Of a stretch of 64,000 bases of DNA, positions 17,129 to 41,765 are shown piece after piece. The translations under genes and the position numbers were made by a program. Below the pieces are notes generated by a model. The model made no database searches, was not told the origin of the DNA, and saw only the letters and a program-made list of their open reading frames with translations. Every line of letters begins with the position of its first letter. The first letter of the stretch is position 1. Source of the stretch: Nitrospira sp. MA-1 (GTDB lineage Bacteria > Nitrospirota > Nitrospiria > Nitrospirales > UBA8639); the NCBI GenBank assembly GCA_032139905.1, contig JAQJDB010000006.1, positions 558,001-622,000 of the forward strand, given 5' to 3'.

Positions 17129-17812
17129 TTAGGTAGGTGCATTTCCGTTTTCTTGAAGGTTTTGCACGATTCCTCTGAGATTATCCAGACTTGTCACATG
17201 GAGTGATGGGATCAGTCTGAAGCGGCTGTTCTCACCAAGAATGACTCCCGCAAAGTGACAGCCAAATTTACCAGCAGCCTCCAGATCATCCTCACTGTCT
17301 CCAACAAAAAGCATCTCATCTGGTTTTGCCTGAGTCAGCTCTTGGATGTGACGCAAGTTTTCCAGTTTACTTGCGGGAGCTCCGTATATCCCCGAGAAAT
17401 AGTGGGTGAGGTTTCGTAGGGTCACAAGTCGATTGAGGGCGTTGGTGGGCGTTTTTGAGTTGAGGTATAGAGGAATCCCTTCATTCAACAGCCAGGTCAG
17501 TATCCCTGAGGCCCCAGGTACTTCCTGGCACCTGACAATGGCTGTTTCGCAGGTAGCTGTGTAGGTCTCCGCCCATTGTAAGCCGAGGATTTCTGTGCTT
17601 GTGGGTGGCGGGATTAGCCCTTTCGCCTTGAACTCGCGGGCAAGTTCACGGGTGATTCCGTATCGATCTTTTTGAGAGCATCGCTGAAGAACGTCAGTGA
17701 CAGTGCAACCGCTGGGATCGTATTCCTCGACAATCTTGTAAAAGGACTGAACCTTCACCTGGTTTGAATCAACCAGCGTTCCGTCAAAATCGAATGCGAC
17801 GCAAGCAATCAT
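17129..17812 (-). CDS. HAD-family phosphatase
   Basis: A 227-aa HAD hydrolase. Motif I is CVAFDFDGTLVDSN with the nucleophile and acid aspartates. Motif II is around PLYLNSKTPTNAL. The motif III lysine is in GAPASKLENL. Motif IV is MLFVGDSEDDLEAAGKFG. A helical cap lies between residues 15 and 85. The ATG overlaps the NeuB-like gene stop by four bases, so the two are translationally coupled. The setting suggests it removes phosphate from a 9-phosphorylated nonulosonic acid made by its neighbour, as KDN/Neu5Ac-9-phosphatases do, or recycles another sugar phosphate. This role is inferred from position. Confidence 0.8.
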   Translation of the reverse strand: MIACVAFDFDGTLVDSNQVKVQSFYKIVEEYDPSGCTVTDVLQRCSQKDRYGITRELAREFKAKGLIPPPTSTEILGLQWAETYTATCETAIVRCQEVPGASGILTWLLNEGIPLYLNSKTPTNALNRLVTLRNLTHYFSGIYGAPASKLENLRHIQELTQAKPDEMLFVGDSEDDLEAAGKFGCHFAGVILGENSRFRLIPSLHVTSLDNLRGIVQNLQENGNAPT

Positions 17813-19392: not shown

Positions 19393-19415
19393 GCTTTTTC
19401 CCTTCCTCTGAAGAT

Positions 19416-24500: not shown

Positions 24501-25730
24501 TTAATTGAGAATTGCATCCGGTTGCACCTGAGCAGGGTTGGTGTGGGTTGGAGTGATATGAGACAACTCTGCAAATGCAGAAATAATTTTTTCAATTTGT
24601 TTCTTCGTATGGGCTGCACTGACACTTAATCGAAGGAGGCATTCGCCGTTTGGTGTGGCAGGAGGAATCATGAGGTTGACATAAATGCCATATTCCAAGA
24701 GTTGTTGCCACATAGCAAGAGCCAATTCTCTGGTAGGGATCATCGCTGCCATAATCGGTCCGACCTCTGCCCCAAGCGTATACCCACTCTTTATTAATCC
24801 ATTATACAAATCCTGTGAATTCGTCCATAGCTGTTGGCGAAGTTCGGGGTGAGACTGGATAATGCGAATGGTTGCCCGTGTGGAAGCGACAACAGATGGA
24901 CATGGGGAGGCCGTAAAAATATAGGGACGACTGGCATAGCGGATTAACTCGAACTCTGGATGAGAACTTATACCGAATCCTCCTGTTGAGCCCAGGCTTT
25001 TACTGAATGTCCCGACGATGCAATCGACGTCCTGTTCGACGCCTGTTTCTTCCGCCAAGCCTCGTCCATGTTGGCCGAGTATGCCCAACGAATGGGCTTC
25101 GTCAACGATCAGTGTGGCTCCATACTTTTTCTTCACTTCGACGATCTCGGCCAGAGGAGCTCGATCTCCCAACATGCTATAAATGCCCTCGACAACAATT
25201 AAGGTCTGCTGGCTTCTGTCCCCCAATCGACGAAGACGTTTTTCTAAGTCTGCCACGTCATTATGCTTAAACCGGATGATTTCTGCCCCTCCAAGCCTGC
25301 ATCCATCATAAATGCTGGCATGAGAGTCCCCATCCATTAATATGGTATCCCCCGCGCCTGCAAGAGCAGAAAGGACGCCAAGATTAGCTTGGTACCCCGT
25401 GGAAAAAACGATTGCATAAGGCGCACCATAGAATTCCGCGATGGCCTTCTCAAGCTCACGGTGGCTCGCAAAAGATCCATTCGCCATCCTCGATCCCGTT
25501 GTGCCGGTCCCTTCCTGAGCAAGAGCCTGTTGACCGGCCAGAATGGCATCAGGGTGAAAGGTTAGACCTAAGTAGTTATTCGTGCCAACTAGAATAGTCG
25601 TTCGCCCGTTGATGATGGCCTCTGTTGGTGAAAGGATCTTGTCGACAGTGATATGAAAGGGGTTGACTCCACTTTTTAGCAACTCATTTCTGGCTTCTTG
25701 AATAGGAAGAAATTTGTCGAATAATGACAT
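24501..25730 (-). CDS. spt: Serine palmitoyltransferase (alpha-oxoamine synthase)
   Basis: A PLP enzyme predicted to condense serine with an acyl thioester to form 3-ketosphinganine, the first step of sphingolipid synthesis, in the cytosol. Landmarks are FDKFLPIQEARNELLKSGVNPFHITVDKILSPTEAIINGR (N-terminus close to Caulobacter-type Spt), GTNNYLGLTFHPDAI, GTGTTGSRMANGSFASHRELE, MDGDSHASIYDGCRLGGAEIIRFKHND and VDEAHSLGILGQHGRGL. The PLP lysine lies in GTFSKSLGSTGGF near residue 240. Bacterial Spt and 8-amino-7-oxononanoate synthase share this fold, but the adjacent acyl carrier protein, acyl-AMP ligase and reductase genes point to Spt. The start lies two bases after the carrier protein stop, so the two are coupled. 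Confidence 0.87.
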   Translation of the reverse strand: MSLFDKFLPIQEARNELLKSGVNPFHITVDKILSPTEAIINGRTTILVGTNNYLGLTFHPDAILAGQQALAQEGTGTTGSRMANGSFASHRELEKAIAEFYGAPYAIVFSTGYQANLGVLSALAGAGDTILMDGDSHASIYDGCRLGGAEIIRFKHNDVADLEKRLRRLGDRSQQTLIVVEGIYSMLGDRAPLAEIVEVKKKYGATLIVDEAHSLGILGQHGRGLAEETGVEQDVDCIVGTFSKSLGSTGGFGISSHPEFELIRYASRPYIFTASPCPSVVASTRATIRIIQSHPELRQQLWTNSQDLYNGLIKSGYTLGAEVGPIMAAMIPTRELALAMWQQLLEYGIYVNLMIPPATPNGECLLRLSVSAAHTKKQIEKIISAFAELSHITPTHTNPAQVQPDAILN

Positions 25731-25732
25731 GA

Positions 25733-25978
25733 TTACCCTTTCAGCAATTTCTCAATCTCTTCGCCTAGGTCCTTCACTGTTCGGATTTTGGGAAGATTGT
25801 TCAGAGGGATGGAAATATCAAAGTGATCCTCGATTTTCAAGAGAACTTGCATAACCTGCAAGGAATCTAATCCCAACTCGGCAACCAGCTCTGTTTGTTC
25901 TTTTAACCGAAAGTTCTCTTTGGCAAACGGCTTAAGGGTGTCGAACAGTTGGGGGAGAATGTCAGAATAACTTATCAT
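25733..25978 (-). CDS. Acyl carrier protein, Spt-associated
   Basis: An 81-aa acyl carrier protein. The frame is open further upstream, but the ATG at 25976-25978 (MISYSDILPQLFD) gives the normal length and is preceded by AAGAAGG five bases away. The phosphopantetheine attachment serine is in AELGLDSLQVMQVLL near residue 40, with EDHFDISIP following, a standard four-helix carrier. It sits between the reductase and spt. In Caulobacter a dedicated carrier in this position delivers the acyl group to Spt. Loading by the acyl-AMP ligase at 26995-28758 is likely. Its upstream edge is 37 bases from the reductase stop. Confidence 0.9.
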   Translation of the reverse strand: MISYSDILPQLFDTLKPFAKENFRLKEQTELVAELGLDSLQVMQVLLKIEDHFDISIPLNNLPKIRTVKDLGEEIEKLLKG

Positions 25979-26015
25979 AATAGCCTTCTTGATGAGGGAG
26001 GAGGACGGATCTGTA

Positions 26016-26960
26016 CTAATCCCTATGGGATGGCATGAGACTATCCGATGTGAACAATCGACGCAAGCCTTCTTTGAGTGAGATTTGAGGAGTCCAGCCG
26101 AGGGTCTGAGCCACCTGGGTATTGTCACAGACCCAATTAAGGTGGAGAAGTTCAGCCGCCTTCCCGCTGGTGAAAAGAGGAGTATATCTCAAGAGGTGGG
26201 AAAATATTTCATTACTTTTTCCTCCAATTTGTAGGAGGCTTGGTGGAATTTGCAAGCACAGGCGGAGGCGAGGATTGGAAATACGAAAGACATCCTCCCA
26301 GGAATATCCACCAGGGAAGCCATCATCAATCTCAAAAATTTGAGAGGGTGGGGCCTGGATTTTCAGCCAATAAAGAATAGCGTTGCAGAGATCGTCAACA
26401 TGAATCAAGGAAAATCTGGCTTGGGAAGGACCAAGTTGAATCCCTATTCCTTTGCGTAATATGGTAAAAAGTGGGAGCAGGGCACGGTCTTGCGGTCCAT
26501 AGACGGCAGGTGGACGAAAAATACTCCACTTCAGGTCCCCCGCCTCACGGGTTAAAACTGCTTCACCTTCATGTTTGCTCCAGGCATAGGGTGAAAGTGA
26601 TGGCTCACGAGCGGCGAGGGATGAGAGAAGAACAAATCGTGGGGGAGAGGAATGCGCGAGACAGGCTTGAATGATATTAGAGACTCCCATCACATTGGTC
26701 GGATAGAAGTCCTCTCGGCTAATTCCGCGAATCGCACCTGCACAATGAATGACGGCAAACGAGTCTTTGACCAGGGCTAAAAGGCTGGCAGGATTTTCCA
26801 ACCGGCATTGGACAGGTTCTATTCCGAGATTTTCGAGCTTTTGAACTTGGCGTGGAGAGCGGGCCAAACCACGGACATGCCACCCAGCTTTCTTTAAATG
26901 CTGAGCTATGACTCCCCCAATAAAACCGGAAGCCCCTGTTAGGGCGACGGTAGTTCCCAT
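26016..26960 (-). CDS. NAD(P)-dependent epimerase/dehydratase-like reductase (CerR-like)
   Basis: A 314-aa extended short-chain dehydrogenase. VALTGASGFIGGVIAQHLKKAGWHVRGLAR is the NAD(P) site (GxxGxxG), CAGAIRGISREDF follows, LLSSLAAREP carries the serine and YAWSKHEGE carries the YxxxK catalytic pair near residue 125. FRPPAVYGPQDRALLP is the usual downstream segment. Although annotated as a sugar epimerase family, a protein of this type next to spt in Caulobacter (CerR) reduces the 3-keto group of the sphingoid/ceramide intermediate. The neighbours here are acyl-AMP ligase, carrier protein and spt, so the same role is inferred. Confidence 0.77.
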   Translation of the reverse strand: MGTTVALTGASGFIGGVIAQHLKKAGWHVRGLARSPRQVQKLENLGIEPVQCRLENPASLLALVKDSFAVIHCAGAIRGISREDFYPTNVMGVSNIIQACLAHSSPPRFVLLSSLAAREPSLSPYAWSKHEGEAVLTREAGDLKWSIFRPPAVYGPQDRALLPLFTILRKGIGIQLGPSQARFSLIHVDDLCNAILYWLKIQAPPSQIFEIDDGFPGGYSWEDVFRISNPRLRLCLQIPPSLLQIGGKSNEIFSHLLRYTPLFTSGKAAELLHLNWVCDNTQVAQTLGWTPQISLKEGLRRLFTSDSLMPSHRD

Positions 26961-26994: not shown

Positions 26995-28758
26995 TTAAGC
27001 AGACCTGGCTATGGACAGCATTGGAGTGACCTCTTCCCACTGAATTCGAGTGAGAAAGTCTGCTTTGGCTCGAGATCGAGAAAGTTTTCCAGATGATGTT
27101 CGCGGGAGTGTCCTGGGGGGGATAAGTTCAATATAGCAGGGAATAGACAACTCCTTGTGAACTAAGGATCGTAGGCGCTGAACCAAGTCCTCCCGTTTTT
27201 GAGAATCCATTTCACGGCATTGCACAACCATGATGGCGATCTCATGACCGTCAGGGGAGGAAACGGAAAAAGCGGATGAATCACCAGGTCGGACTTCCGC
27301 CTGTTGTTCTGCCATGAATTCTAAATCTTGAGGCCAGATATTCCGTCCATTAATGATGATCATATCTTTGGACCGGCCAATAATGACGAGACTGTTGTTG
27401 ACCCAATAGCCGATGTCGCCCGTATTGAGCCAGCCATCGTGGGAGAGGACCTCTTCCGTCATGATTGGATCATTGAAATATCCAGTCATGGTGCTTGCCC
27501 CACGCACAAAAATTACTCCACTTTCTCGCTCATCGAGGACATCTCCGTTCATATTACGTATTTGAACTTCATATCCAGGGAGAGGAACACCGCAATTCAC
27601 AAATTTGCTGCATCGAGCCTGGTTGTCATCAGTGGAGGATGGGACAAAAGGCATGGCTAACCGGTTATTCGAGAGCTGATCTCCGTCAACCCTGTCAACC
27701 TCGAGGCCTTTGTTCAATGGAGCGAAACTAACTGCCAAAGAACATTCAGCCATCCCATAGCAAGCCAAAAATGCTTCAGATTTAAACCCGCTGGCCTTCA
27801 GGGTTTTGGCAAAACGGGAGAGGCTATCGGCACGAATTGTTTCTGCTCCAGCGCCAGCGATTCGCCAGGAGCTGAGATCATACTGTTCATTGAAATCTTC
27901 CCCAAGTCTTCGCACGCAGAGCTCGTATCCAAAGGAAGGGCTGAATGAAATTGTTGCCCGACTCTTGGTCATTAAACTCAGCCACTGACGAGGACGCATG
28001 GCAAAATCGCGTGTGCTCAAATAATCAACAGAAAGCTGTGAAGCGATTGGACCAAGAACGAATCCGACTAGTCCCATATCATGGTAAAAGGGAAGCCAGG
28101 AGACACAACGGTCGCCAGTCTGAACTTGTAAGCCATGCTGAATGATTCCGGATAGATTGGTCATCACGGCCGATTGGGTGACTTCAACGCCTCTAGGCCA
28201 ACGTGTGCTACCAGAGGTGTATTGAATATAGGCTAATTCGTGCGGCTCCAGTGGTCTGAGCGGATCATGAGTTTCTTGCAATGAGGCGAATGTTTCTGGG
28301 CCTCCGATGAGGGCCAGATCCATCTCGGCTGCTGCTTCCTCTAAAAATGGCAAAAAGCCTTCAGGTGCCATGGCGATAGAGGCTTGGCAGCTCTCGAGTA
28401 GCCGTTTAAGTTGGGTGACGTATGCCTGATGTCCCCCTAAATGCAGCGAAATAGGAAGAGGAACCGGAACAAGTCCGGCATACTGACAGGCGAAAAAGAA
28501 TCGAATGAAATCCGGGGTGGTGTCAGCAATGAGGGCCACCCGAGCGCCACGAGCTAGTCCTAATCCGTTCAGTCTTCTTGCTAGATTTTGAGCTTGTTGT
28601 TGCAGGCCGGCATATGTCAACACGTGGGTGAGTTTGCCTCTCCCTGAATAAAAATTACAGCCGGTTTCTCCTGAAGCCGCATAATCAAGGGCCTCTGAAA
28701 GGGTGGAGAAGTTCCCATGTTTAAGTCTGAGTTGGTGATGAGTTGGTGTAGCGTTCAT
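26995..28758 (-). CDS. Fatty-acyl-AMP ligase / acyl-ACP synthetase
   Basis: A 587-aa adenylating enzyme that activates a fatty acid with ATP and passes it to a carrier protein. The P-loop is YIQYTSGSTRWPRGVEVT near residue 190. SWLPFYHDMGLVG, ACYGMAECSLAVSF, MTGYFNDP, WLNTGDIGYW and GRSKDMIIINGRNIWPQDLE follow in order. The C-terminal LPRTSSGKLSRSRAK holds the A10 lysine. FYHDMGLVG and the length favour the fatty-acyl-AMP ligase group over CoA ligases. It heads the minus-strand array and is followed by the reductase, carrier protein and spt, the Caulobacter ceramide set, so it likely loads the carrier for Spt. Confidence 0.85.
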   Translation of the reverse strand: MNATPTHHQLRLKHGNFSTLSEALDYAASGETGCNFYSGRGKLTHVLTYAGLQQQAQNLARRLNGLGLARGARVALIADTTPDFIRFFFACQYAGLVPVPLPISLHLGGHQAYVTQLKRLLESCQASIAMAPEGFLPFLEEAAAEMDLALIGGPETFASLQETHDPLRPLEPHELAYIQYTSGSTRWPRGVEVTQSAVMTNLSGIIQHGLQVQTGDRCVSWLPFYHDMGLVGFVLGPIASQLSVDYLSTRDFAMRPRQWLSLMTKSRATISFSPSFGYELCVRRLGEDFNEQYDLSSWRIAGAGAETIRADSLSRFAKTLKASGFKSEAFLACYGMAECSLAVSFAPLNKGLEVDRVDGDQLSNNRLAMPFVPSSTDDNQARCSKFVNCGVPLPGYEVQIRNMNGDVLDERESGVIFVRGASTMTGYFNDPIMTEEVLSHDGWLNTGDIGYWVNNSLVIIGRSKDMIIINGRNIWPQDLEFMAEQQAEVRPGDSSAFSVSSPDGHEIAIMVVQCREMDSQKREDLVQRLRSLVHKELSIPCYIELIPPRTLPRTSSGKLSRSRAKADFLTRIQWEEVTPMLSIARSA

Positions 28759-28987: not shown

Positions 28988-29419
28988 TCAGCGAATCCAG
29001 TTGTTTTTGAGGTGACTGAAAATTGTTTGGTGCACCTCTTCTGAGGTGTCATTTGAATTCTTGAGTTGAGGTGGCCCAGGCCATCCATGGTCAAAAAATT
29101 GCTGCTGAGAAAATAATCGAGGCGTGTCATACCGGGGAATGACATGAAAATGAACCTCGGGGTCAACCATCATCAACATAAGGTAATTTATTTTGCTATA
29201 GCCAAATGTGCGTGAGACACTTGTCTCAATCTCACGTATGATCCCAGGCAGTTCTTTAAATGCATCGGCACTAATTTGGGAAAACGCTGTGGCCTCCTCT
29301 CGACAAATTAATACCAGGGAGCCAAGGGTCACTTGTTGGGGGCGCAGGAGCACAACCCATTGGGAAAAATCTTTGAGACAGGTATCGGGATACCCAAATT
29401 TTTTCATTGTGGTGTTCAT
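28988..29419 (-). CDS. HIT-family protein
   Basis: A 143-aa histidine-triad protein. The signature is VDPEVHFHVIPRYDTPR near residue 95, a shortened form of the HxHxHxx nucleotide-binding loop. The N-terminus has the usual small beta-domain (QWVVLLRPQQVTLGSLVLICREE) and a helical AFKELPGIIREIE. HIT proteins hydrolyse or transfer nucleotidyl groups. It begins 383 bases from the divergent hydroxylase-like gene and ends ~230 bases before the acyl-AMP ligase. A link to lipid headgroup chemistry is possible but unproved. Confidence 0.8.
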   Translation of the reverse strand: MNTTMKKFGYPDTCLKDFSQWVVLLRPQQVTLGSLVLICREEATAFSQISADAFKELPGIIREIETSVSRTFGYSKINYLMLMMVDPEVHFHVIPRYDTPRLFSQQQFFDHGWPGPPQLKNSNDTSEEVHQTIFSHLKNNWIR

Positions 29420-29802: not shown

Positions 29803-30537
29803 GTGCTAACCAGTCAATGGTATCGTGAAAAGTATCTCCTTGATCGCATGACGTTTCGCGATCTGATATGGGCGTACGTTTTATACCCAAGTATTCAATT
29901 ATATGGGGTGTTATTGGCCTGTAGTATCGTCGGTGCCATCGTCATTTTCGAGTACTTTCCTGTTTCTCCCCTTCACATGGCAGGAAGTATTGTTCTGACC
30001 CTGCTTGCTTATCCCTTCGTAGAATATGCTGTCCATCGGTTTATTTTACATGGGCGATACCTGTATCGGTCGCCATGGACGGCAGCCTTGTGGAAACGGA
30101 TTCACTATGATCACCACCAAGATTCCAATGATTTACGGGTGTTGTTCGGGGCGGGCTCGACCACCCTACCTACGATTGTCGTGGCCACTTTCCCTATTGG
30201 GATGAGTGTTGGAGGCTGGGTGGGGGCCGCCCTTTCTTTTGGGACAGGATTGGCGTGTTTTATGGTGTATGAACTCTGTCATTGCATGCAGCATCTGCGC
30301 GTGAATCCCAAAGTTAAGTTTTTACGGCGGATCAAGCGACATCATTTGCTGCATCATTTTCATAACGAACAAGGAAACTTTGGGATCACGAGTCTGTTTT
30401 GTGACCGGATTTTCGGTAGTGAGTATGGGAGTGCTGAGGATGTGCCGTTCAGTCAGACCGTTTCCAACCTGGGTTATGCGGATGAGGAACGATCCCACTA
30501 CCCTTGGGTGGCCCAACTATCCGAACAGAAGCCATAA
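29803..30537 (+). CDS. Fatty acid/sphingoid hydroxylase superfamily membrane protein
   Basis: A 244-aa integral membrane di-iron enzyme of the sterol desaturase/fatty acid hydroxylase superfamily. Histidine clusters are EYAVHRFILHGRYL, IHYDHHQDSND, ELCHCMQHLRVN and RHHLLHHFHNEQGNFG, and hydrophobic segments lie at ~25-75 and ~120-150. The start is GTG at 29803, chosen because GGAGG at 29791-29795 stands seven bases before it. Superfamily members hydroxylate fatty acids, sterols or the sphingoid C4/acyl C2 positions. Adjacency to spt genes and to a ceramide-synthase-like gene makes a sphingolipid hydroxylase the best guess, but the specificity cannot be read. Confidence 0.8.
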   Translation: MLTSQWYREKYLLDRMTFRDLIWAYVLYPSIQLYGVLLACSIVGAIVIFEYFPVSPLHMAGSIVLTLLAYPFVEYAVHRFILHGRYLYRSPWTAALWKRIHYDHHQDSNDLRVLFGAGSTTLPTIVVATFPIGMSVGGWVGAALSFGTGLACFMVYELCHCMQHLRVNPKVKFLRRIKRHHLLHHFHNEQGNFGITSLFCDRIFGSEYGSAEDVPFSQTVSNLGYADEERSHYPWVAQLSEQKP

Positions 30538-30636: not shown

Positions 30637-31761
30637 TTGATTCGCATTGAACCGGTCACCGACCGCGCCGGTCTCAAAGAGTTTATTCGCCTTCCCTGGA
30701 AGTTGTACCACTCAGATCCTCATTGGATTCCGCCTTTATTGGTCGAACGGCTCCATACCTTTTCCCAGAAAAATCCCTATTTTCAACATGCTCGTTGGCA
30801 ATGTTGGCTGGCTTATCGAGGACAGGAACCCGTCGGTCGAATTTCTGCCCAGATTGATGACCTGCATCTCAGTCGTTATCAGGATCGGACGGGGTTTTTT
30901 GGCCTGCTTGAAGCAGAGGAGGAGTCCAGTATCTTTCACGCGCTATTTCAGGCTGCGGAAACCTGGCTTCAGACTCAGGGGATGACGAACGTTCGTGGGC
31001 CGTTTAACCTGTCGATCAATCAGGAATGTGGTCTGTTGGTTGATGGGTTTGATTCACCGCCCATGATTATGATGGGCCACGCCATGCCTTACTACCCATA
31101 CGGTGTTGAACAAAATGCCTATGAAAAGGCCCAAGATCTTCTGGCCTATCGTATTGGAATACATTTTAGTTTTCCCCCTGGAGTTTCTCTGTTTCTCAAA
31201 AAAGCGAAAACCTCGATGCGAATTCGTCCGTTACGGCGGAAGCATCTGAATGAAGATTTAGCGATTATTAAGGATATTTTCGAAGAGGCCTGGTCAGATA
31301 ATTGGGGATTTCTTCCGTTTACCGATGCAGAATTTGCTGAGATCGGACAGCAGCTTAAGCTATTGGTTGAAGATGATTTTGTCCAGATCGCTGAAATCGA
31401 TGGTGAACCAACGGCGATGTTGGTTGCCTTTCCCAATATGCATGAGGTCATTCGAGATCTGAATGGGCATCTATTTCCATGGGGTTGGCTGAAAATCTTA
31501 TGGCGGTTGAAAGCGTCCTATCCCCGGTCGGGTCGGGTTGCCTTAATGGGCGTGCGTAAACGATTTCAATCAAGTCCGATGGGTGCGGCGATGGCCTATG
31601 GATTAATTGAAGCGGTGAGGGAAGCAGGGCTTCGAAAACAAATTCAGCATGTCGAAATGTCCTGGATTTTAGAAAATAATAAACGCATGCGTCACATTCT
31701 AGAATCCCTCGGAGCCGAACCATACAAGACGTATAGAATTTACGAGAAGCATCTTCAATGA
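30637..31761 (+). CDS. GNAT-fold acyltransferase, likely bacterial ceramide synthase
   Basis: A 374-aa protein matching the family that includes the Caulobacter ceramide synthase. The conserved N-terminus is TDRAGLKEFIRLPWKLYHSDPHWIPPLLVER, with PVGRISAQIDDLH, GFFGLLEAEEE, VRGPFNLSINQECGLLVDGFDSPPMIMM (a hallmark stretch) and a C-terminal GNAT-like half with MGVRKRFQSSPMGAAMAYGLIEA and EMSWILENNKRMRHILESLGAE. It would N-acylate the sphingoid amine with an acyl-CoA. The start is TTG at 30637 with GGGGAAAGG upstream. It sits ~100 bases after the hydroxylase and 27 before the MobA-like gene. Assigned from recalled family features, not from a search. Confidence 0.75.
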   Translation: MIRIEPVTDRAGLKEFIRLPWKLYHSDPHWIPPLLVERLHTFSQKNPYFQHARWQCWLAYRGQEPVGRISAQIDDLHLSRYQDRTGFFGLLEAEEESSIFHALFQAAETWLQTQGMTNVRGPFNLSINQECGLLVDGFDSPPMIMMGHAMPYYPYGVEQNAYEKAQDLLAYRIGIHFSFPPGVSLFLKKAKTSMRIRPLRRKHLNEDLAIIKDIFEEAWSDNWGFLPFTDAEFAEIGQQLKLLVEDDFVQIAEIDGEPTAMLVAFPNMHEVIRDLNGHLFPWGWLKILWRLKASYPRSGRVALMGVRKRFQSSPMGAAMAYGLIEAVREAGLRKQIQHVEMSWILENNKRMRHILESLGAEPYKTYRIYEKHLQ

Positions 31762-31788: not shown

Positions 31789-32619
31789 ATGGAGCTTGAC
31801 CATCCACCTGTGACGGCCCTGGTGCTTGCTGGTGCCCGATCCGGGCGAGATCCGGTTGCCCAGATGGCAGGGGTATCAACTAAGGTCCTGGCACAGGTGG
31901 GTGGGGAACCCATGATTTCCCGTGTATTGCAGACGTTAGACCAGTCGCGCACGGTGGGGAAAAGAATATTATGCGGGCCTTCATGGGAAACAATACAAAA
32001 TAATCCGTTTCTAGGAACATTGATTGAGTCAGGAGGGGTACAGTGGGTGGAGCCTCAACAAGGTCCGAGTCTTAGTGTTGCAAGGTTTCTGGATGGTCAC
32101 CCTCAGGAATTCCCTGTTCTGGTCACGACGGCGGACCATGCCTTGTTAACGGCAGAAATGGTTGATTATTTTCTCCATGCGGCGCAGGAAAAACAGATGG
32201 ATGTGGCCGTGGGGCTGGTGCCGTATTCCTCAGTTGTGGCGTCATACCCTCAATCTAAGCGAACGGTTACCCGACTCACGGGCGGAGGGTTTTGCGGGTG
32301 TAATCTCTTTGTTCTCTGCACCCCAAAGGCTAAGCGAATGGTGGAATTTTGGAGCCAGGTTGAGCGTGAGCGCAAGCATCCCATTCGCCTGATTCGAACT
32401 CTTGGAGGGCTGGCCCTGGTCCGTTATCTATTTGGTTGGTTGTCGCTTGCGGAAGCCTTGAATCGACTTGGGCGGAAGCTCAATCTTCAGGTGCAAGAAG
32501 TGCTGCTTCCGTTTCCCGAAGCGGCTATTGATGTAGACACTCCTGAAGATCTGGCCTTGGCGGAAGCCATCTTGGCGAAACGACAGGAAGACATAGAGAA
32601 AGGCGTGGCTCCTGGCTAA
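31789..32619 (+). CDS. MobA-like nucleotidyltransferase
   Basis: A 276-aa GT-A-like NTP transferase. The N-terminal VTALVLAGARSGRDPVA is the nucleotide P-loop, changed from the usual GGxSxRMG. VSTKVLAQVGGEPMISRVL supplies the conserved lysine and 'PL(I)xRV' element. PVLVTTADHALL supplies the metal-binding DH(A). The end, AAIDVDTPEDLALAEAIL, closes the family. Such enzymes make NDP-sugars, CDP-polyols or cofactors. It follows the ceramide-synthase-like gene by 27 bases, so it is probably co-transcribed. A role in making a nucleotide-activated headgroup for a sphingolipid is plausible; nothing in the sequence fixes the substrate. Confidence 0.75.
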   Translation: MELDHPPVTALVLAGARSGRDPVAQMAGVSTKVLAQVGGEPMISRVLQTLDQSRTVGKRILCGPSWETIQNNPFLGTLIESGGVQWVEPQQGPSLSVARFLDGHPQEFPVLVTTADHALLTAEMVDYFLHAAQEKQMDVAVGLVPYSSVVASYPQSKRTVTRLTGGGFCGCNLFVLCTPKAKRMVEFWSQVERERKHPIRLIRTLGGLALVRYLFGWLSLAEALNRLGRKLNLQVQEVLLPFPEAAIDVDTPEDLALAEAILAKRQEDIEKGVAPG

Positions 32620-32688: not shown

Positions 32689-33417
32689 TCACGAGGGATG
32701 AATTTTGAACAGACGTTCAGCATGTTCTAAGTCGGATGGATTATCGATCTCAGCCCAGTTCAACCCCTTAATGCAAAAAGTGGATACATGACCCTGTTGG
32801 GCCAATTCGTCGAGGAGTGATAAGTACCATTGCTTGAGGGCCTCCGGTTTACGAATTCGTTGGTCTAGTGTTGATAGAAAGATTTTAGGTCCATTGCCCT
32901 GAAAACGGATCATGCCGATGGACTCTCCGTTCACCTGTTCGATTGGCAGGGTTTTGCCGATTCGATCCAATTGTGTGCCACGGACGATGACTTTCATGTC
33001 GTCAGCATCGTAGCAAGCTTTCTCATCGGTTACTAAGGTAATGGGCGTAGGGGGGGCCTGCAGCAGACCTTGTAGCACCGCCGATTCAAATAGGGTGTCC
33101 CCATTAATTAATATAAAATCCTGGGTCATGTCGTTTCGGGCCGCCCAACAACTCATCAAATTATCTGCCATGGCAAAAAATGGATTATAGATCGTACGGA
33201 CAGAACCGGAGGCGATATCGTCAGCCAGAAGAGCTTCGACCTTCTCGGCCCCGAACCCTACCACAATGTGAATGGAATCAATTCCCAGGCGAAGAAGTTC
33301 CTGGATTTGCCATTTCACAATTGGTTGTCCATTGACCGGAACGGTACATTTGGGTTTGTCGACTGTATGCGGGAGTAACCGTTTTCCCTGTCCAGCACTT
33401 AAGATCACGGCTTTCAT
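32689..33417 (-). CDS. NTP transferase (sugar-/polyol-phosphate cytidylyltransferase-like)
   Basis: A 242-aa nucleotidyltransferase: AVILSAGQGKRLLPHTVDKPKCTVPVNGQPIVKWQI holds the GxGxR P-loop and lysine, and FILINGDTLFES holds the metal-binding D. GLNWAEIDNPSDLEHAERLF is the C-terminal metal site. The architecture matches LicC-type phosphocholine and inositol-1-phosphate cytidylyltransferases, as well as small sugar-1-P nucleotidylyltransferases. It is on the minus strand between two plus-strand lipid genes. It could make the CDP-alcohol used by the CDP-alcohol phosphotransferase at 36000-37205. That link is inference, though archaeal inositol-phospholipid enzymes pair these two activities. 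Confidence 0.8.
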   Translation of the reverse strand: MKAVILSAGQGKRLLPHTVDKPKCTVPVNGQPIVKWQIQELLRLGIDSIHIVVGFGAEKVEALLADDIASGSVRTIYNPFFAMADNLMSCWAARNDMTQDFILINGDTLFESAVLQGLLQAPPTPITLVTDEKACYDADDMKVIVRGTQLDRIGKTLPIEQVNGESIGMIRFQGNGPKIFLSTLDQRIRKPEALKQWYLSLLDELAQQGHVSTFCIKGLNWAEIDNPSDLEHAERLFKIHPS

Positions 33418-33476
33418 CGTGGTAAGCCTCCTATCATGAGATGTTCACTGTCTATTGCTGTGTTGAGGTATGGTCG

Positions 33477-34535
33477 ATGTTAGTCAGATATCTAGTTCGA
33501 GAGGTCCTGAAGCCAACAGCTGTCGTCTGTGGCCTTTTGGTGGCCTTGTTTGCCGGATACAGTTGGGTCACATTTTTAGCCAAGGCCGTCAATGCACTTT
33601 TGCCGGCAAATATGATTCTCACGCTCATTGCGTTAAAAGTGGGAATTGCGCTTGAGGTCCTCATTCCTATTTCGTTGTATTTCGGGGTTATTTTAGGTTT
33701 TGGCCGTTTGTATACCGATTCTGAAATGAAAGCCTTTATGGCGTGTGGTGTCAATCCGTATCGGATCCTTTTGGCGATTTTTGTTCTTAGCTGTTTTGTG
33801 GGCGTGATTGTCAGCATCTTTTCTTTGTATCTTCGTCCATTGGCCTATGAGGAAAGTTATCGATTAAAGGCTGAAGGAGAGGCTGGATTTCGTTTGAGCA
33901 ATTTAGATGCCGGGCATTTTTATGAACGACGAAATGGATCCCTGGTGTTTTTTGCAGAGGGTGTCGATCAAGACCATCAAAAATTAAGTGGGGTCTTTGT
34001 TCAAAGTGAAAACGGAGATAATTTGCAAGTCTTTTCGGCAAAGACCGCTCAAGAGGAGATTGATCCCCAAAGTGGTATCTCGATTCCAGTTCTCTTTGAT
34101 GGATTCGAATATAAACTGACAAGGGAGGGGGAGATCAAGCACATTTCTGGTTTTTCACGGTTAGCAATTTATCCTCAGGAGCTTGTAGCGGAGTATAAAC
34201 GCAAGGCCGAATCCACACAAAATTTATTAAAATCTGATGCTCGCAAGGATATCGCAGAACTTCAATGGAGGTTTATCGCTCCTTTTTCGGCTATTCTCAT
34301 GGGTCTGCTAGGAGTTCCCTTGAGTCGTGCTTCTCCAAGACAAGGCAAATATGCCAAAACCTTCACAGCCACCGTAATTTTTTCAGTCTATTACTTTGCC
34401 CAGTTGATGGTGAAGACGTTGGTGGAGCAAGGCAACCTCCCCATCATTCCCGGTCTTTGGTGGATTATTCTTGGGTTAGGAGCCTTACTAGCCTATTGGC
34501 TGGCCCCCAAACGTTTCACCAGGTCTTTATCGTAG
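33477..34535 (+). CDS. lptF: LptF/LptG-family permease (LptF-like)
   Basis: An inner-membrane permease of the YjgP/YjgQ family, 352 aa from the ATG at 33477 (GAGG eight bases upstream). A longer frame starts at 33441 but adds only a cysteine-rich stub. The N-terminus LVRYLVREVLKPTAVVCGLLVALFAGY is the family start, with helices at ~12-35, 55-85, 100-130 and three near the C-terminus. The middle ~130 residues form the periplasmic beta-jellyroll (FYERRNGSLVFFAEGVDQ). MGLLGVPLSRASPRQGKYAK is the conserved loop. It partners with the LptG-like gene 95 bases downstream; LptB is not in the window. It sits in the sphingolipid neighbourhood. Confidence 0.87.
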   Translation: MLVRYLVREVLKPTAVVCGLLVALFAGYSWVTFLAKAVNALLPANMILTLIALKVGIALEVLIPISLYFGVILGFGRLYTDSEMKAFMACGVNPYRILLAIFVLSCFVGVIVSIFSLYLRPLAYEESYRLKAEGEAGFRLSNLDAGHFYERRNGSLVFFAEGVDQDHQKLSGVFVQSENGDNLQVFSAKTAQEEIDPQSGISIPVLFDGFEYKLTREGEIKHISGFSRLAIYPQELVAEYKRKAESTQNLLKSDARKDIAELQWRFIAPFSAILMGLLGVPLSRASPRQGKYAKTFTATVIFSVYYFAQLMVKTLVEQGNLPIIPGLWWIILGLGALLAYWLAPKRFTRSLS

Positions 34536-34629: not shown

Positions 34630-35700
34630 ATGAAAACTCTCAATCGGTACCTGGCGGGTAGTTTACTAAAGGGATATCTTCCGGTCCTGGCGATCTTTTT
34701 GGCGGTTTTTAGTTTAATTGTTTTTGTTGAAGAACTGGATGAGGTAGGCAAAGGCCGTTATACATTTTGGAGCGCGAGTGAGTATTTGTTGCTGACCATG
34801 CCAAGCCGACTGGTGTTTTTGGCTCCGTTTGTAGCCTTATTAGGGAGTATTATGGCCTTAGGGGGGCTTGCCAATGGTTGTGAACTCATCGCAATGCAGG
34901 CCGGGGGAGTTTCTCCCTATCAAATAGCCTGGTCGGTGATGAAGGTTGGGGCATGTTTTATTGTACTCGTGGGAATTCTGGAAGAGGTTGTCAATCCTCC
35001 CCTGGACCAGGAGGCGTATTTTAAGCGATCAATGGCCCTGTCGGATTCTGGGGCCTATAAGGGAAAGCAGGGTTTCTGGTTTCGTGAAGGAAGGCGCTTC
35101 ATCAGAATTCATCAAATTCGCTACGGAGAGAGTCCGCAAGGCCTTGATATTTTTGAATTTAATGATGGCGGCCAATTGGACTTCTATATGCATGCTCAAG
35201 AGGCAGAAATTGTCAATCCTCAGAAGTGGACTCTGAAAAATATTAAAAAGCAGGTCATTCACGGATATCGTGTTTCTCAGGAGCAGTTGGCGAGCCTGGA
35301 ATGGGACTCTCCGCTCAAACAGAATGAAGTCCGGTTATTGACTCTTCCTTCTTCCACATTGGCCCCTTCGGAGCTCTACCAATACATGGAATTCTTAAAA
35401 CGTAAAAAACAAAATTTTCTGAGATATGAGTTAAGCTTTTGGGACAAAATATTTATGCCCTTGAATACCGGTCTCATGATCTTAGTGGCCATACCGTTTG
35501 TCTTCGGTCCCTTGCGAATGTCTCCAGCTGGGAAGAGGGTATTCATTGGATCCCTGGTCGGTCTGGCATATTATTTGATGACGGAAATTTCTAAACATGT
35601 TGGAATTTTGTTCGGAGCCTCTCCGTTATTGACGACGGCCGCTCCCTTCCTACTGTTGTCCCTTGTCACGTTTGTTTTGTGGCGGCGTTATCTCAATTGA
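34630..35700 (+). CDS. lptG: LptF/LptG-family permease (LptG-like)
   Basis: A 356-aa partner of the preceding permease. The N-terminus is MKTLNRYLAGSLLKGYLPVLAIFLAVFSLIVFVEELDE, then helices, and GGLANGCELIAMQAGGVSPYQIAW, the coupling-helix segment that contacts the ATPase in LptFG. The periplasmic domain (FREGRRFIRIHQIRYGE) is followed by LMILVAIPFVFGPLRMSPAGKRVFIGSLVG and two further helices. Together with LptF, LptB and LptC it extracts lipopolysaccharide from the inner membrane. The two permeases lie in a lipid cluster, so they may instead, or also, move the cluster's sphingolipid. Confidence 0.88.
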   Translation: MKTLNRYLAGSLLKGYLPVLAIFLAVFSLIVFVEELDEVGKGRYTFWSASEYLLLTMPSRLVFLAPFVALLGSIMALGGLANGCELIAMQAGGVSPYQIAWSVMKVGACFIVLVGILEEVVNPPLDQEAYFKRSMALSDSGAYKGKQGFWFREGRRFIRIHQIRYGESPQGLDIFEFNDGGQLDFYMHAQEAEIVNPQKWTLKNIKKQVIHGYRVSQEQLASLEWDSPLKQNEVRLLTLPSSTLAPSELYQYMEFLKRKKQNFLRYELSFWDKIFMPLNTGLMILVAIPFVFGPLRMSPAGKRVFIGSLVGLAYYLMTEISKHVGILFGASPLLTTAAPFLLLSLVTFVLWRRYLN

Positions 35701-35999: not shown

Positions 36000-37205
36000 A
36001 TGACTGTGTCTGCATATATTATCAATGATCCGAATGTCCGTTTGTGGAATTTGACCTCCCGTATCCGGTATGAACGAATGTTAAGTCGATTGGGGGTTGG
36101 GAATTTTCTCAATAATCTCAGCGATCTTCCATCCGATCATTCGCTTCTTGTTATTAGAGGAGATTTTTTATTTGATGCGCGCATATTCTCCTTCCTCCTG
36201 AAACAAACCAATGTTGTCCTGGAAGTTGAGGTTCAAGCTGGGTTGCGCCCGGTTATGGCTCATGTCGATTCCACTTTAGCTTCCGCAACGTGTGAAGGGA
36301 TGCAACGAGAACACACCAGAGATGTTGCAAACTTACAATCTGTGACATTGCAAGATCTTTCAATTTCTTTTTCAAACGAATTGCGAAAAACTGATCATCC
36401 CTACGTGTTCCCCATTCGCGAAAATAACCGGGTGGCTTTGGAAGAACATTTATTTACGGGATCATATAAAGGCGTCACTGATCTGGTGACGAAGTTTCTT
36501 TGGCCTGTTCCGGCCAAATGGGCCACTCGGCTTTGTGCGGGTTGGGGGATTTCGCCTAATCAGGTGACCTCGCTGAGCTTATTACTTGTGATTGCCGCGG
36601 GAGTGTTGTTCGCGTTTGGGCAGTTTTTCTGGGGACTTGTCCTGGGCTGGATAATGACGTTCCTCGATACGGTGGACGGAAAATTAGCTCGAGTAACGGT
36701 GACCTCCAGTAAATGGGGCAATATTTTTGATCATGGCATTGATTTAATCCACCCTCCTCTTTGGTATTTAGCTTGGGGGTTGGGTCTCACCGCGTTTTCC
36801 CCTTTTCTCTCTTGGTTAACTCTGGAAATCACCTTTGGAATCATTTTGCTCGGATATGTGTTGGGACGCATGGTTGAAGGAATTTTTCAATGGTGGTTGG
36901 GGGGATTTGTCATCTTTTGTTGGAAACCGTTGGACTCCTATTTCAGGCTTGTCACGGCTCGGCGTAATCCTAATCTCATCTTCTTAACGGCTAGCCTTCT
37001 TGTTGGACGTCCCGATTTGGGTTTGGAGGCTGTGGCCATTTGGACGGTGGGCTCGACTTTGATTCTTCTGGGCAGACTCCTAATGGCGGGCTGGGGAAAA
37101 GCTCGGGTAGGTTCCCTCACTTCCTGGTTGGCTGAGATCGATCCAGTGAATCGAAATTCTTTGGCAGTGAGAATGTTTACCAATCCTCCGGTCACCATCA
37201 AATGA
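36000..37205 (+). CDS. CDP-alcohol phosphatidyltransferase with N-terminal extra domain
   Basis: A 401-aa fusion. Residues ~155-390 form the membrane CDP-alcohol phosphotransferase, whose signature D-G-x2-A-R-x8-G-x3-D-x3-D is intact in DTVDGKLARVTVTSSKWGNIFDHGID near residue 225, with helices around it. Residues 1-150 are soluble and look like a degenerate nucleotidyltransferase (RYERMLSRLGVGNFL, LLVIRGDFLFDARI), followed by LEEHLFTGSYKGVTDLVTKFLWP, the usual linker before the membrane part. Archaeal inositol-1-P cytidylyltransferase/DIPP synthase has a similar two-part design. It would transfer a phospho-alcohol between a CDP-linked lipid and a polyol, or the reverse. With spt genes nearby a phosphosphingolipid is a fair guess. 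Confidence 0.8.
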   Translation: MTVSAYIINDPNVRLWNLTSRIRYERMLSRLGVGNFLNNLSDLPSDHSLLVIRGDFLFDARIFSFLLKQTNVVLEVEVQAGLRPVMAHVDSTLASATCEGMQREHTRDVANLQSVTLQDLSISFSNELRKTDHPYVFPIRENNRVALEEHLFTGSYKGVTDLVTKFLWPVPAKWATRLCAGWGISPNQVTSLSLLLVIAAGVLFAFGQFFWGLVLGWIMTFLDTVDGKLARVTVTSSKWGNIFDHGIDLIHPPLWYLAWGLGLTAFSPFLSWLTLEITFGIILLGYVLGRMVEGIFQWWLGGFVIFCWKPLDSYFRLVTARRNPNLIFLTASLLVGRPDLGLEAVAIWTVGSTLILLGRLLMAGWGKARVGSLTSWLAEIDPVNRNSLAVRMFTNPPVTIK

Positions 37206-37258
37206 TCGTTCATGTAGATATGACATATTTGTACGTCTACCCGAACTCCCCAATGTAA

Positions 37259-38278
37259 ATGCTTCCTATCTCATCTTTGCCGTCGCTTGAGCTCGGTCGC
37301 ACCGGGTCTAAGATGCATGTGGGGATCCTTCATAATTCGCTGAGTGGTCGTAATAGGCGGAAGCCAGCTCTTTTCCAGGGAATTTACCTCAAATATCCCG
37401 AAGTGCAACGGGCTGAGGTCAGCACGCCTGCGGATATCCTGGAAGCTCTGAAGACGTTTGCCCACCGTCAGGTGAATTGTGTGGTCGTCAATGGAGGGGA
37501 TGGGACCATTCAAGCCACCATTGGGGCTTTGTTTCATCATCGTCCGTTTGCCCTCATGCCCCGGTTGGCTGTGTTGCCAGCAGGGACGGCCAATCTGATT
37601 GCGGGAGATGTGGGTTTAGGGAGATTTGAGTCACACACGCTTGAACAGTTATTGGTTCAAGCCGAAGCCATGACTCCGGGATTATGTTTTGAAACACGAC
37701 CAGTTCTTCGTATTCAATTTCCAGAAAGCCGCGAACCCCTGCATGGGATGTTTTTCGGGGCTGGGGCTATTTATCATGGCACGCAACTCGGCATTGAAAC
37801 CAAACAATCGATAGGCCGGTTAGGGGAATGGGGAGCCGGGCTGATTCTGCTGAAATTTTTATTGGCGTTGGCCTCCGGGTCCCGAAAAGGGTTGAATCCG
37901 ATCACGGTGCGTGTGGCAACTGGAGAATCAGCACCTCTCCAGCATGAGTATTTAGTCTTGTTGGTCACCACCCTGGATCGCTTATTTTTAGGGATGAAAC
38001 CGTTCTGGGGCAAGCAATCCCAGCCTCTGCGATACACGAGTCTTCGAGTGCCGTATCGCTATTTATGGCGTGCCTTGCCAACATTGTTTCGTGGGAAGAC
38101 CCACCCTTTAGCCACGACAGAACATGGCTATGTCAGTGAAAATCTCTCAAGGCTTCGTTTAGTGTTTAACAGCGGATTTGTCTTGGATGGTGAAGTGTAT
38201 GCGTCTTCCCTGCCTGAAGAGCCTTTAACCCTGGATTCTCCTGGCGAGTTGTCATTTGTGCGGTTAAAGACTGAATAA
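37259..38278 (+). CDS. Diacylglycerol kinase-family lipid kinase
   Basis: A 339-aa protein of the DAGK/sphingosine-kinase/ceramide-kinase superfamily. VNGGDGTIQATIGALF near residue 80 is the GGDGT nucleotide loop, LPAGTANLIAGDVGL is the second conserved element (PxGTxNxxA), and GMFFGAGAIYHGTQLGIETKQ is the third. The C-terminus RLVFNSGFVLDGEVYASS holds the DGE motif. It phosphorylates a lipid hydroxyl using ATP at the cytosolic face of the inner membrane. The ATG at 37259 starts a hydrophilic extension; the Met at 37313 (MHVGILHN) is closer to the family start. The setting suggests diacylglycerol, sphingoid base or ceramide as substrate. Confidence 0.85.
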   Translation: MLPISSLPSLELGRTGSKMHVGILHNSLSGRNRRKPALFQGIYLKYPEVQRAEVSTPADILEALKTFAHRQVNCVVVNGGDGTIQATIGALFHHRPFALMPRLAVLPAGTANLIAGDVGLGRFESHTLEQLLVQAEAMTPGLCFETRPVLRIQFPESREPLHGMFFGAGAIYHGTQLGIETKQSIGRLGEWGAGLILLKFLLALASGSRKGLNPITVRVATGESAPLQHEYLVLLVTTLDRLFLGMKPFWGKQSQPLRYTSLRVPYRYLWRALPTLFRGKTHPLATTEHGYVSENLSRLRLVFNSGFVLDGEVYASSLPEEPLTLDSPGELSFVRLKTE

Positions 38279-38280
38279 CT

Positions 38281-39237
38281 GTGATGGATGGCTCCCCAAC
38301 AGTCCTCGAGGTCGTGAGCCAGCCGAGCGCTCGACCCATTCCTGTGCCTATTCAAGCAGCGGGAAATTTCCTGGCTAAAAAATACGGGAATGCTGTCCAA
38401 GGAATCTTATTGTATGGCTCCTGCCTGCGGGCGGGAACGGATCAAGACGGATTAGTGGATTGTTATGTCATTGTGGATCAGTATGCTTCGGTCTACCAGT
38501 CTGTTTGGTTGGCCCTCCTCAATCGTTGGCTTCCACCAAACGTGTTCTATGGAGAAGTGAACCTGGAAGGACGGATTGTTCGAATGAAGTATGCCGTGCT
38601 CTCGTTAGGGGATTTTGAGCGAAGTGTGACTTCAAAATGGTTTCATTCATACTTTTGGGGACGCTTTGCGCAACCGACGGCCGTGATGGCCAGTCCGAGC
38701 CACACGATAAGTCAACGGATTATTTCAGGCTTGGGACGGGCGGTCCTGACATTTTTGGGGAATGTTGTTCCTCAAATGCCGCAACAATTTTCTGCCAAAG
38801 ATGCATGGAGTATTGGGTTGGCCCTCAGTTATAGCGCCGAATTACGTGCCGAATCAAAAGGGCGAATCGCCACATTGTGGGACAGTAACCAAGCCTATTA
38901 TGAACAAGTCGCACATGCGGCGTTTTCAGCCAATTTCCCAAAGATCAAGGTCATTCAGGGGAATGACATAATCATGTATGAGATGGAATATTCCAGGTGG
39001 GACCACATGAAGAATCGCATAGCCTGGATTGTTCGGAAAGTGCAGGGGAAGGTGTTATCTATTTTGCGGTTGATGAAAGCGGCCTTTACGTTTCAGGGAG
39101 GGGCGGACTACCTCATCTGGAAAATCGAGCGGCATTCCGGAGTGAAAATCGAATTGACCCCCACCCAGCGTCGGCATCCCATTTGGGCCGGACTTACGAC
39201 ATTCTGGCGCCTCTATCGCAAAGGGGCCTTCCGGTAA
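38281..39237 (+). CDS. Tam41-like nucleotidyltransferase (phosphatidate cytidylyltransferase-like)
   Basis: A 318-aa protein starting at GTG 38281, two bases after the lipid kinase stop, so it is tightly coupled to it. The nucleotidyltransferase core is AVQGILLYGSCLR followed by GLVDCYVIVD, the GS...DxD-type metal site near residues 45-65. WLPPNVFYGEVNLEGRIVRMKYAVLSL and YFWGRFAQPTAVMASP are typical of the mitochondrial Tam41 family, which makes CDP-diacylglycerol. It probably converts the phospholipid product of the kinase to a CDP-lipid for the CDP-alcohol phosphotransferase. If the kinase acts on ceramide, the product would be a CDP-ceramide, which would be novel. This is inference from order. 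Confidence 0.68.
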   Translation: MMDGSPTVLEVVSQPSARPIPVPIQAAGNFLAKKYGNAVQGILLYGSCLRAGTDQDGLVDCYVIVDQYASVYQSVWLALLNRWLPPNVFYGEVNLEGRIVRMKYAVLSLGDFERSVTSKWFHSYFWGRFAQPTAVMASPSHTISQRIISGLGRAVLTFLGNVVPQMPQQFSAKDAWSIGLALSYSAELRAESKGRIATLWDSNQAYYEQVAHAAFSANFPKIKVIQGNDIIMYEMEYSRWDHMKNRIAWIVRKVQGKVLSILRLMKAAFTFQGGADYLIWKIERHSGVKIELTPTQRRHPIWAGLTTFWRLYRKGAFR

Positions 39238-40895: not shown

Positions 40896-41765
40896 TCACG
40901 GACGGGTTAAAGAAGACTGTGGATCGTGTTGCTCCCTAAAATTCTTCGGGGCCAGTCCCTGAGTAAAGGAGTGGCTCCGCTGATGATTGTAAAACCGCTC
41001 AATGTAGTCAAAAATATCGGCGCGGGCCTCTGCCCGGGTTTGGTACTGCCGCCGATGGACTCGCTCTCGTTTGAGGAGGCCAAAGAAACTCTCTGCCACG
41101 GCATTGTCATAACAACTTCCCACGCCACTCATACTGCTGACAATCCCATGAGCCTGGAGAAAGGCTTGAAACTCCTGTGAGGTATACTGGGTGCCTCGGT
41201 CGGAATGCAGGATGACAGGGGCCGCACTCGTCCGCTGCCACACGGCCATCAGCACGGCTTGGAGGACCAGGTCCCGTCCCAGTTGTGGCTGCATCGACCA
41301 CCCAATCACTTGCCGAGAGAACAAATCGAGCACCACCGCCAAGTACAGCCAGCCTTCTTGCGTGGGAATATAGGTGATATCCGTCACCCATTTGGCATTC
41401 GGACCTGGGGCTGAAAAATCCCGGGCCAACTGATTCGTGATTCCAGCCGGTCGGTCTCCAGATCTCCGCCGTTTCCAACGCGTGGGAGCAGGAATCCCTC
41501 GCAACCGCTCCCGTTGCATTAAACGGGCAACACGATGTTTCCCACAGCCCTCGCCTTGCCTGCGTAACACCTGCCAGATCTTCGGGCTCCCATAGACCCC
41601 ATCACTGTCTGCATGGATGATGCGAATGGCGGCCGTCAGGCGCTGACAGTCTTGAGCCCAGGGACTCGGAGAGCGGCGCTGCCGGGCATAAAACCCACTC
41701 GGGGAGACGTGGAGGAGACGACACATCAGACGCAGAGGAAACATGGTGCGACAACGTTGAATCAT
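40896..41765 (-). CDS. IS3-family transposase OrfB (DDE integrase)
   Basis: A 289-aa transposase with a helix-turn-helix-like N-terminus (FPLRLMCRLLHVSPSGFYARQ), an HTH_21 region (DSDGVYGSPKIWQVLRRQG) and an rve integrase core. The DDE residues are in WVTDITYI (first D), LHSDRGTQYTSQEF (second D) and SCYDNAVAESFFGLLKRE (E). YNHQRSHSFTQGLAPKNF is the typical C-terminal end. Intact and probably active. In IS3 elements OrfB is made as an OrfAB fusion by -1 frameshifting; its frame here begins nine bases after the OrfA stop, and the extended open frame could allow that. Confidence 0.93.
   Translation of the reverse strand: MIQRCRTMFPLRLMCRLLHVSPSGFYARQRRSPSPWAQDCQRLTAAIRIIHADSDGVYGSPKIWQVLRRQGEGCGKHRVARLMQRERLRGIPAPTRWKRRRSGDRPAGITNQLARDFSAPGPNAKWVTDITYIPTQEGWLYLAVVLDLFSRQVIGWSMQPQLGRDLVLQAVLMAVWQRTSAAPVILHSDRGTQYTSQEFQAFLQAHGIVSSMSGVGSCYDNAVAESFFGLLKRERVHRRQYQTRAEARADIFDYIERFYNHQRSHSFTQGLAPKNFREQHDPQSSLTRP

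Follow-up and report, generated by a model that had tools for sequence, protein, structure and literature searches.

A probable Nitrospirales version of the Caulobacter ceramide phosphoglycerate cluster with a candidate CDP-ceramide synthase

Genes at the locus

We analysed a stretch of 64,000 nucleotides (contig JAQJDB010000006.1, positions 558,001 to 622,000; called the window for simplicity) from Nitrospira sp. MA-1, which belongs to the Nitrospirales, an order including nitrite oxidisers. Three consecutive open reading frames (ORFs) of 401, 339 and 318 amino acids, all on the plus strand, encode a CDP-alcohol phosphotransferase (CDP, cytidine diphosphate) with a degenerate N-terminal cytidylyltransferase-like domain (36000-37205), a putative ceramide kinase of the DAGK_cat family (37259-38278) and a Tam41-fold nucleotidyltransferase (38281-39237); the last starts at a GTG codon separated by two bases from the stop of the kinase gene. 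The original prediction was built on just this layout, i.e. a kinase and a Tam41-like gene two bases apart behind a CDP-alcohol phosphotransferase, and the ORFs bear it out. The three genes are homologues of cpgA, cpgB and cpgC, respectively, and lie in what is probably the Nitrospirales (Nitrospirota) version of the published Caulobacter cluster for ceramide phosphoglycerate (CPG) and CPG2; it is a known kind of cluster, found here outside Proteobacteria. The case for a CDP-ceramide step in this pathway is now stronger than it was, and there are good grounds against CpgA as the enzyme that consumes CDP-ceramide.

Genes for ceramide formation lie upstream of the trio, as had been noted earlier for spt and a ceramide synthase. 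On the minus strand these are spt, serine palmitoyltransferase (24501-25730; NF047599 624.8 bits, cut-off 500), acpR, an acyl carrier protein recognized from its translation (25733-25978, starting at an internal ATG of the ORF 25733-26128), cerR, a reductase of the NAD-dependent epimerase/dehydratase family (26016-26960; PF01370 88 bits), and a fatty-acyl-AMP ligase, aasR/ACS (26995-28758; NF006624 789 bits), each of which also matches the corresponding gene of known clusters. The bacterial ceramide synthase homologue bCerS (CC_1154-like, 30637-31761, plus strand), a GNAT-fold protein matching Acetyltransf_1, shares 42% identity across 375 residues with the gene that occupies the CC_1154 position in the Roseomonas cluster. 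Two nucleotidyltransferase ORFs follow that were not part of the original trio: a CC_1153-like MobA/CofC-type NTP transferase (31789-32619, plus strand; PF12804 52 bits, reciprocal best hit) and, on the minus strand, a cpgD homologue (32689-33417), putatively a phosphoglycerate cytidylyltransferase using cytidine triphosphate (CTP). Between these and cpgA, two plus-strand permeases of the LptF2 type (33441-34535; PF03739 203 bits) and the LptG2 type (34630-35700; PF03739 235 bits), both with cluster matches, are proposed to export the sphingolipid.

Of 15 window genes compared, 14 match the cluster of a Roseomonas marmotae plasmid (L138) and/or that of a Pseudomonas plasmid (L137) as reciprocal best hits; the exception in both comparisons is a gene for a fatty acid hydroxylase (29803-30537, plus strand; PF04116 78 bits), which perhaps serves ceramide hydroxylation. 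The gene order of the Roseomonas cluster agrees with the order published for Caulobacter CC_1152-CC_1166 (PMC11324152), and the order recurs across Nitrospirota, Desulfobacterota-type and proteobacterial loci, so it is not due to chance. Compared with the Caulobacter crescentus cluster (CC_1152-CC_1168, with cpgABC and cpgD), the window shares the ceramide genes, the kinase, CpgC, CpgA, CpgD, the CC_1153-like enzyme, LptF2/G2 and, judged by the Roseomonas gene order, the HIT protein, whereas it differs in its Nitrospirota host, its operon arrangement, the hydroxylase gene inside the cluster and the metallophosphoesterase at the CC_1158 position, which was not seen in its slot in the window or in loci of the same genus, e.g. 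L056 and L058. This phosphoesterase does not define membership in the cluster, since PMC11324152 lists it as missing also in Hyphomonas and five other organisms.

CpgC as a candidate CDP-ceramide synthase

The Caulobacter counterpart of CpgC is CC_1161, whose deletion is reported to remove CPG (PMC11324152) and whose reaction is treated as an open question in PMC12275187. The window CpgC is the reciprocal best hit of the Roseomonas and Pseudomonas cluster genes and is 98% identical to the CpgC of the Nitrospirales metagenome-assembled genome (MAG) UBA8639. A phmmer search of the PDB with the single sequence gave no match, whereas a profile of 39 CpgC members matched the Tam41 structures 6ig2 and 6ig4 with E values of about 2e-5 (6ig2, 2.3e-5) over profile positions 87-212. 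The AlphaFold2 model (predicted local distance difference test, pLDDT, of 81, weaker beyond about residue 260) superimposes on Tam41 with CTP and Mg bound (7ecd) with a VIA Z score of 17.9 over 229 residues at 3.3 Å and on 6ig4 and 6ig2 with Z scores of 16.9 and 16.7, respectively, against 6.9 for the next family, the antibiotic nucleotidyltransferases; the Tam41-like identity assigned originally is thereby upheld. Residues invariant in 39 CpgC homologues include Y45, G46, S47, D60, K103, R128, F129, Y184 and R189, and the KY, RF..P and SLSY..R stretches of Tam41 align with invariant CpgC residues. On the strength of the fold, the profile match and these aligned residues, CpgC is taken to be a CTP-using CDP-lipid synthase. 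It resembles the mitochondrial-type CDP-diacylglycerol synthase Tam41 in its fold over model residues 4-271 and in the K-Y and R-F-x-x-P stretches, but differs from it in an identity of 14-18% in the structural alignment, a Pfam score under the cut-off and the expected substrate, ceramide-1-phosphate.

The cluster context and the genetics of Caulobacter point to ceramide-1-phosphate as the lipid substrate, and our best guess for the reaction, based on the model, is that CTP and ceramide-1-phosphate would give CDP-ceramide. As the kinase is reported to be required for CPG in Caulobacter (PMC11324152, PMC12275187), ceramide-1-phosphate presumably retains its phosphate, which must then be activated. 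The intermediate is not as new as had been supposed: a CDP-activated ceramide was originally called undescribed, but a nucleoside diphosphate (NDP)-activated ceramide made by CC_1161 had already been suggested in PMC11324152 (2024). Neither a demonstration of a nucleotide-activated ceramide nor the term 'CDP-ceramide' was found in the literature searched. The Tam41 fold points to a direct assay of CpgC with CTP and ceramide-1-phosphate.

That CpgC uses the Tam41 fold for another reaction, e.g. the direct joining of glycerate to ceramide-1-phosphate or the nucleotidylation of CPG, appears rather unlikely to us. PMC12275187 draws CpgC as converting ceramide-1-phosphate to CPG by a mechanism left unidentified there, no separate CPG transferase is known, and the C-terminal part of CpgC, including the stretch modelled at low confidence, is highly conserved. 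However, PMC11324152 describes unactivated direct joining as energetically poor, and all close folds found belong to CDP-lipid synthases that use CTP.

Apparent pairing of CpgA with makers of CDP-headgroups

CpgD of Caulobacter (CC_1152, CCNA_01210) is described as making CDP-glycerate, and its catalytic and glycerate-contact residues are named in PMC13228409 and PMC12275187. The window CpgD shares 50% identity with its Roseomonas and 51% with its Pseudomonas cluster counterpart, and the positions that by spacing match Caulobacter R16, K26, N90, N110, D112, M147, K161, S170 and W201 are invariant in 33 of 33 homologues including the window protein; the T93 position is serine in 32 of the 33, and the T88 position, which makes contact through the backbone, is variable. 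A paralogue whose gene adjoins that of another CDP-alcohol phosphotransferase in the genome keeps K161 and D112 and differs at N90, N110, M147, S170 and W201. CpgD likely makes CDP-glycerate, which is then the likely donor for CpgA. A second cytidylyltransferase/CDP-alcohol phosphotransferase pair, followed by a membrane protein, was seen on contig 7 of the same genome (L004 3-578 and 589-2073).

CpgA matches CDP-OH_P_transf (PF01066) with 41 bits (cut-off 22). The CDP-alcohol phosphotransferase (CAPT) motif is DxxDGxxARx8Gx3Dx3D, and all eight of its residues in CpgA (D223, D226-G227, A230-R231, G240, D244 and D248) are invariant in 30 homologues. The CpgA model is closest to AF2299 (Z 21.9) and IPCT-DIPPS (Z 20.2), with about 320 residues aligned within model residues 2-366, and comparison with 4o6m/4mnd places a cytidylyltransferase-like domain at its N-terminus. 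CpgA shares with these enzymes, of which IPCT-DIPPS uses a CDP-polyol, the fusion of such a domain to a membrane CDP-alcohol phosphotransferase, but in CpgA the domain is short and degenerate, and the cytidylyltransferase is encoded separately, by cpgD.

Co-variation was followed in 50 CpgC-bearing genomes, i.e. the genomes searched for 50 of 80 loci (the best 80 of 277 CpgC matches); left out were 18 loci, for the most part short contigs or near-duplicates within the genus of the window, together with a further 12. CpgA was called at scores of 267 bits or more (the next hit below scoring 52) and CpgD at scores of 230 bits or more (the next hit below scoring 109). CpgA was present in 33 genomes and missing in 17, and each of the 28 genomes with CpgD also had CpgA: 28 genomes carried both, five CpgA only, none CpgD only and 17 neither, with the reservation that MAG incompleteness can fake the absence of a gene. 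Four of the five genomes with CpgA only (G154, G155, G157 and G159) carry a TagD-like gene scoring 263-322 bits, against at most 71 bits in the other genomes, and in the fifth (G163) CpgA lies at a contig edge. The TagD-like genes, so named by eye for their resemblance to TagD, a CTP:glycerol-3-phosphate cytidylyltransferase, occupy the cpgD slot between the CC_1153-like gene and lptF (L117 3864-4301, L118 3830-4273, L120 3806-4249); there is none in the window. In the three TagD-type CpgAs tested, T235, S236 and H251, sites next to the catalytic motif, are all replaced, by N, Y and F, respectively. The Fisher p value of 2.7e-9 (1.8e-12 when TagD is included) ignores relatedness and is not used as proof.

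Since CpgA in these genomes co-occurs with CpgD or, in all but one of the others, a TagD-like gene and CpgD never occurs without CpgA, the partner of CpgA seems to be an enzyme that makes a CDP-headgroup, and the TagD-like gene in the place of cpgD suggests that one Desulfuromonadales-type clade uses another CDP-headgroup donor. This pairing supports CDP-glycerate as the donor and predicts a variant headgroup. In Caulobacter, CpgA (CC_1159) is reported to be required for CPG2 but not for CPG, and CC_1160 alone restores CPG in a CC_1159/CC_1160 double mutant (PMC11324152), which makes CpgA dispensable for attaching the first headgroup. We propose that CpgA is a CDP-glycerate:CPG phosphoglycerate transferase; most likely it does not consume CDP-ceramide.

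The original prediction had instead let CpgB, CpgC and CpgA act in three consecutive steps, with CpgA moving phosphoceramide from CDP-ceramide onto an alcohol. The adjacency of the three genes fits this, as do the 25 of 25 CpgC genomes with CpgA among 117 Nitrospirota relatives (which therefore offer no contrast; CpgA is present and CpgC absent in another five MAGs, all fragmented) and the second CpgA directly after CpgC in two Nitrospirales (NPIRA04, L072 7704-8933 and 11143-12384; NPIRA01, L074 7713-8942 and 11205-12431), which could serve a further headgroup extension or be a CDP-ceramide transferase. We nevertheless consider the consecutive chain quite unlikely: it leaves out CpgD, it conflicts with the 17 CpgA-less CpgC genomes, with the company that CpgA keeps with CpgD or TagD-like enzymes and with the rescue of the Caulobacter double mutant, and the folds nearest to CpgA are those of AF2299 and of IPCT-DIPPS, which judging from its name in the PDB uses CDP-inositol. 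What survives of the proposed chain on ceramide is that the genes probably act on ceramide and that CpgC is a plausible CDP-ceramide synthase; CpgA as its third consecutive step is not borne out.

Lipid substrate, proposed pathway and surroundings

The Caulobacter kinase CpgB (CC_1160, CCNA_01218) is described as a ceramide kinase. Its homologue in the window is a reciprocal best hit with the cluster genes, matches DAGK_cat (PF00781) with 53 bits (cut-off 23.6), contains GGDG and, having two cysteines only, lacks CxxxCxxC; it is the sole DAGK_cat gene found in the genome. The original prediction held that it would fail if the cluster genes were the genome's only CdsA/PgsA functions, which is ruled out because one CdsA and four further CDP-alcohol phosphotransferases are encoded elsewhere in the genome; a PssA-like gene lies beside a Psd-like one, as recognized by eye. 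As orthologues of cpg-cluster genes in a genome with a separate CdsA and four further phosphotransferases, the cpg genes probably act on ceramide. A second route to phosphatidate and CDP-diacylglycerol, in which CpgB and CpgC act on diacylglycerol, is very unlikely: Tam41 itself makes CDP-diacylglycerol, CpgB is the only DAGK_cat protein found, three loci (L075, L088 and L139) have cpgB and cpgC without ceramide genes within the examined stretch and Caulobacter CpgB is reported to phosphorylate diacylglycerol in vitro (PMC10331486), but ceramide genes surround the pair both in the window and at many further loci, the genome has CdsA and the PssA-like gene beside the Psd-like one, deletion of cpgB is reported to leave phosphatidate unchanged (PMC10331486) and that of CC_1161 abolishes CPG.

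In the pathway that we propose, ceramide produced by Spt, AcpR, the ligase, CerR and bCerS would be phosphorylated by CpgB to ceramide-1-phosphate, which CpgC would turn into CDP-ceramide with CMP taken from CTP. A transferase encoded outside the cluster would join CDP-ceramide with glycerate or phosphoglycerate to form CPG; as a conjecture, phosphoglycerate may be used and the CC_1158-type phosphoesterase may then take off the spare phosphate, as in phosphatidylglycerol synthesis. In a separate branch, CpgD would make CDP-glycerate from CTP and 2-phosphoglycerate, and CpgA would transfer phosphoglycerate from it onto CPG to give CPG2, the finished lipid being exported by LptF2/G2. The expected product is therefore ceramide phosphoglycerate in place of the inositol- or glycerol-phosphoceramide foreseen at first, and the cluster predicts anionic phosphosphingolipids in Nitrospirales. 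The combined reading, which we regard as evenly poised, is that CpgC is the first CDP-ceramide synthase and the ceramide counterpart of Tam41, that the core pathway extends from Proteobacteria to Nitrospirota, that CpgA and a maker of the CDP-headgroup (CpgD for glycerate, a TagD-like enzyme perhaps for glycerol) form an exchangeable second module, and that a separate transferase uses CDP-ceramide.

The proposed pathway, which we consider more likely than not, is built on reciprocal-best-hit homology, folds, conserved active-site residues and the co-variation of CpgA with CpgD or TagD, from which we infer the reaction of CpgC, the donor of CpgA, export and validity in Nitrospirales; the activities of CpgB and CpgD and the mutant lipid profiles were demonstrated in Caulobacter by others. 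Several points weigh against it. The case in Nitrospirales is read from genes, the enzyme and lipid results coming from Caulobacter, and orthology was anchored on named alpha- and gammaproteobacterial clusters and the published gene order in place of Caulobacter sequences, no record titled Caulobacter being among the best 80 of 277 CpgC matches; likewise, the Caulobacter CpgD residues were placed by their spacing. By hmmscan, CpgC reaches 19.2 bits with Pfam Tam41_Mmp37, below the cut-off of 24; 11 of 14 family members match the model (best 7.2e-9), and because the PF09139 search of the own genome gave no match even at E 1, the first look of the genome-search tool evidently misses the divergent CpgC. 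A preference of CpgC for ceramide-1-phosphate over phosphatidate is not visible in the sequence. If only strongly supported branches are counted, CpgA and CpgD changed independently once, against six times on the best tree, and TagD replaces CpgD in a single clade (L117, L118, L120 and L125). The CC_1153-like enzyme is found in 46 of the 50 CpgC genomes, i.e. 32 of 33 with CpgA and 14 of 17 without it, and the latter fits poorly with the CPG to CPG2 step in which Caulobacter mutants place the CC_1153 and CC_1158 enzymes. As the CC_1158-type phosphoesterase is likewise kept in most CpgA-less genomes (16 of 17, and 28 of 33 with CpgA), both enzymes go with the CpgB/CpgC core. Finally, no transferase using CDP-ceramide was identified, and the inspected CpgA-less loci showed no CDP-alcohol phosphotransferase by blast or by eye, their genes not having been run through Pfam.

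The literature search returned no paper joining sphingolipid, Nitrospirota and serine palmitoyltransferase, and no relevant one among those listed for Nitrospira. The fatty acid hydroxylase was seen beside the cluster only in Nitrospirota loci; in Caulobacter, the hydroxylation of ceramide is reportedly the task of a DesA-type protein, CC_0202. The HIT-family gene (28988-29419, minus strand) shares 46% identity with the HIT protein encoded in the Roseomonas cluster and from the gene order would be the CC_1157 equivalent; a nucleotide-phosphate enzyme of this family beside CDP-lipid enzymes, as also in the Roseomonas cluster, may not be unrelated to them. The plasmid with the Pseudomonas cluster (L137 4473-22990) also carries intI1 and sul1, possibly pointing to a mobile sphingolipid pathway. 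An ELM1/GtrOC1-type glycosyltransferase gene (22019-24439) adjoins spt in the window; its product is 34% identical to one encoded beside the Pseudomonas plasmid cluster and is matched in L127. By eye, an IS3-type transposase look-alike (40896-41765) lies 1.7 kb downstream of cpgC, and NeuB/NeuA-type look-alikes for CMP-sugar synthesis (16297-20507) make it likely that a surface glycan locus adjoins the sphingolipid genes.

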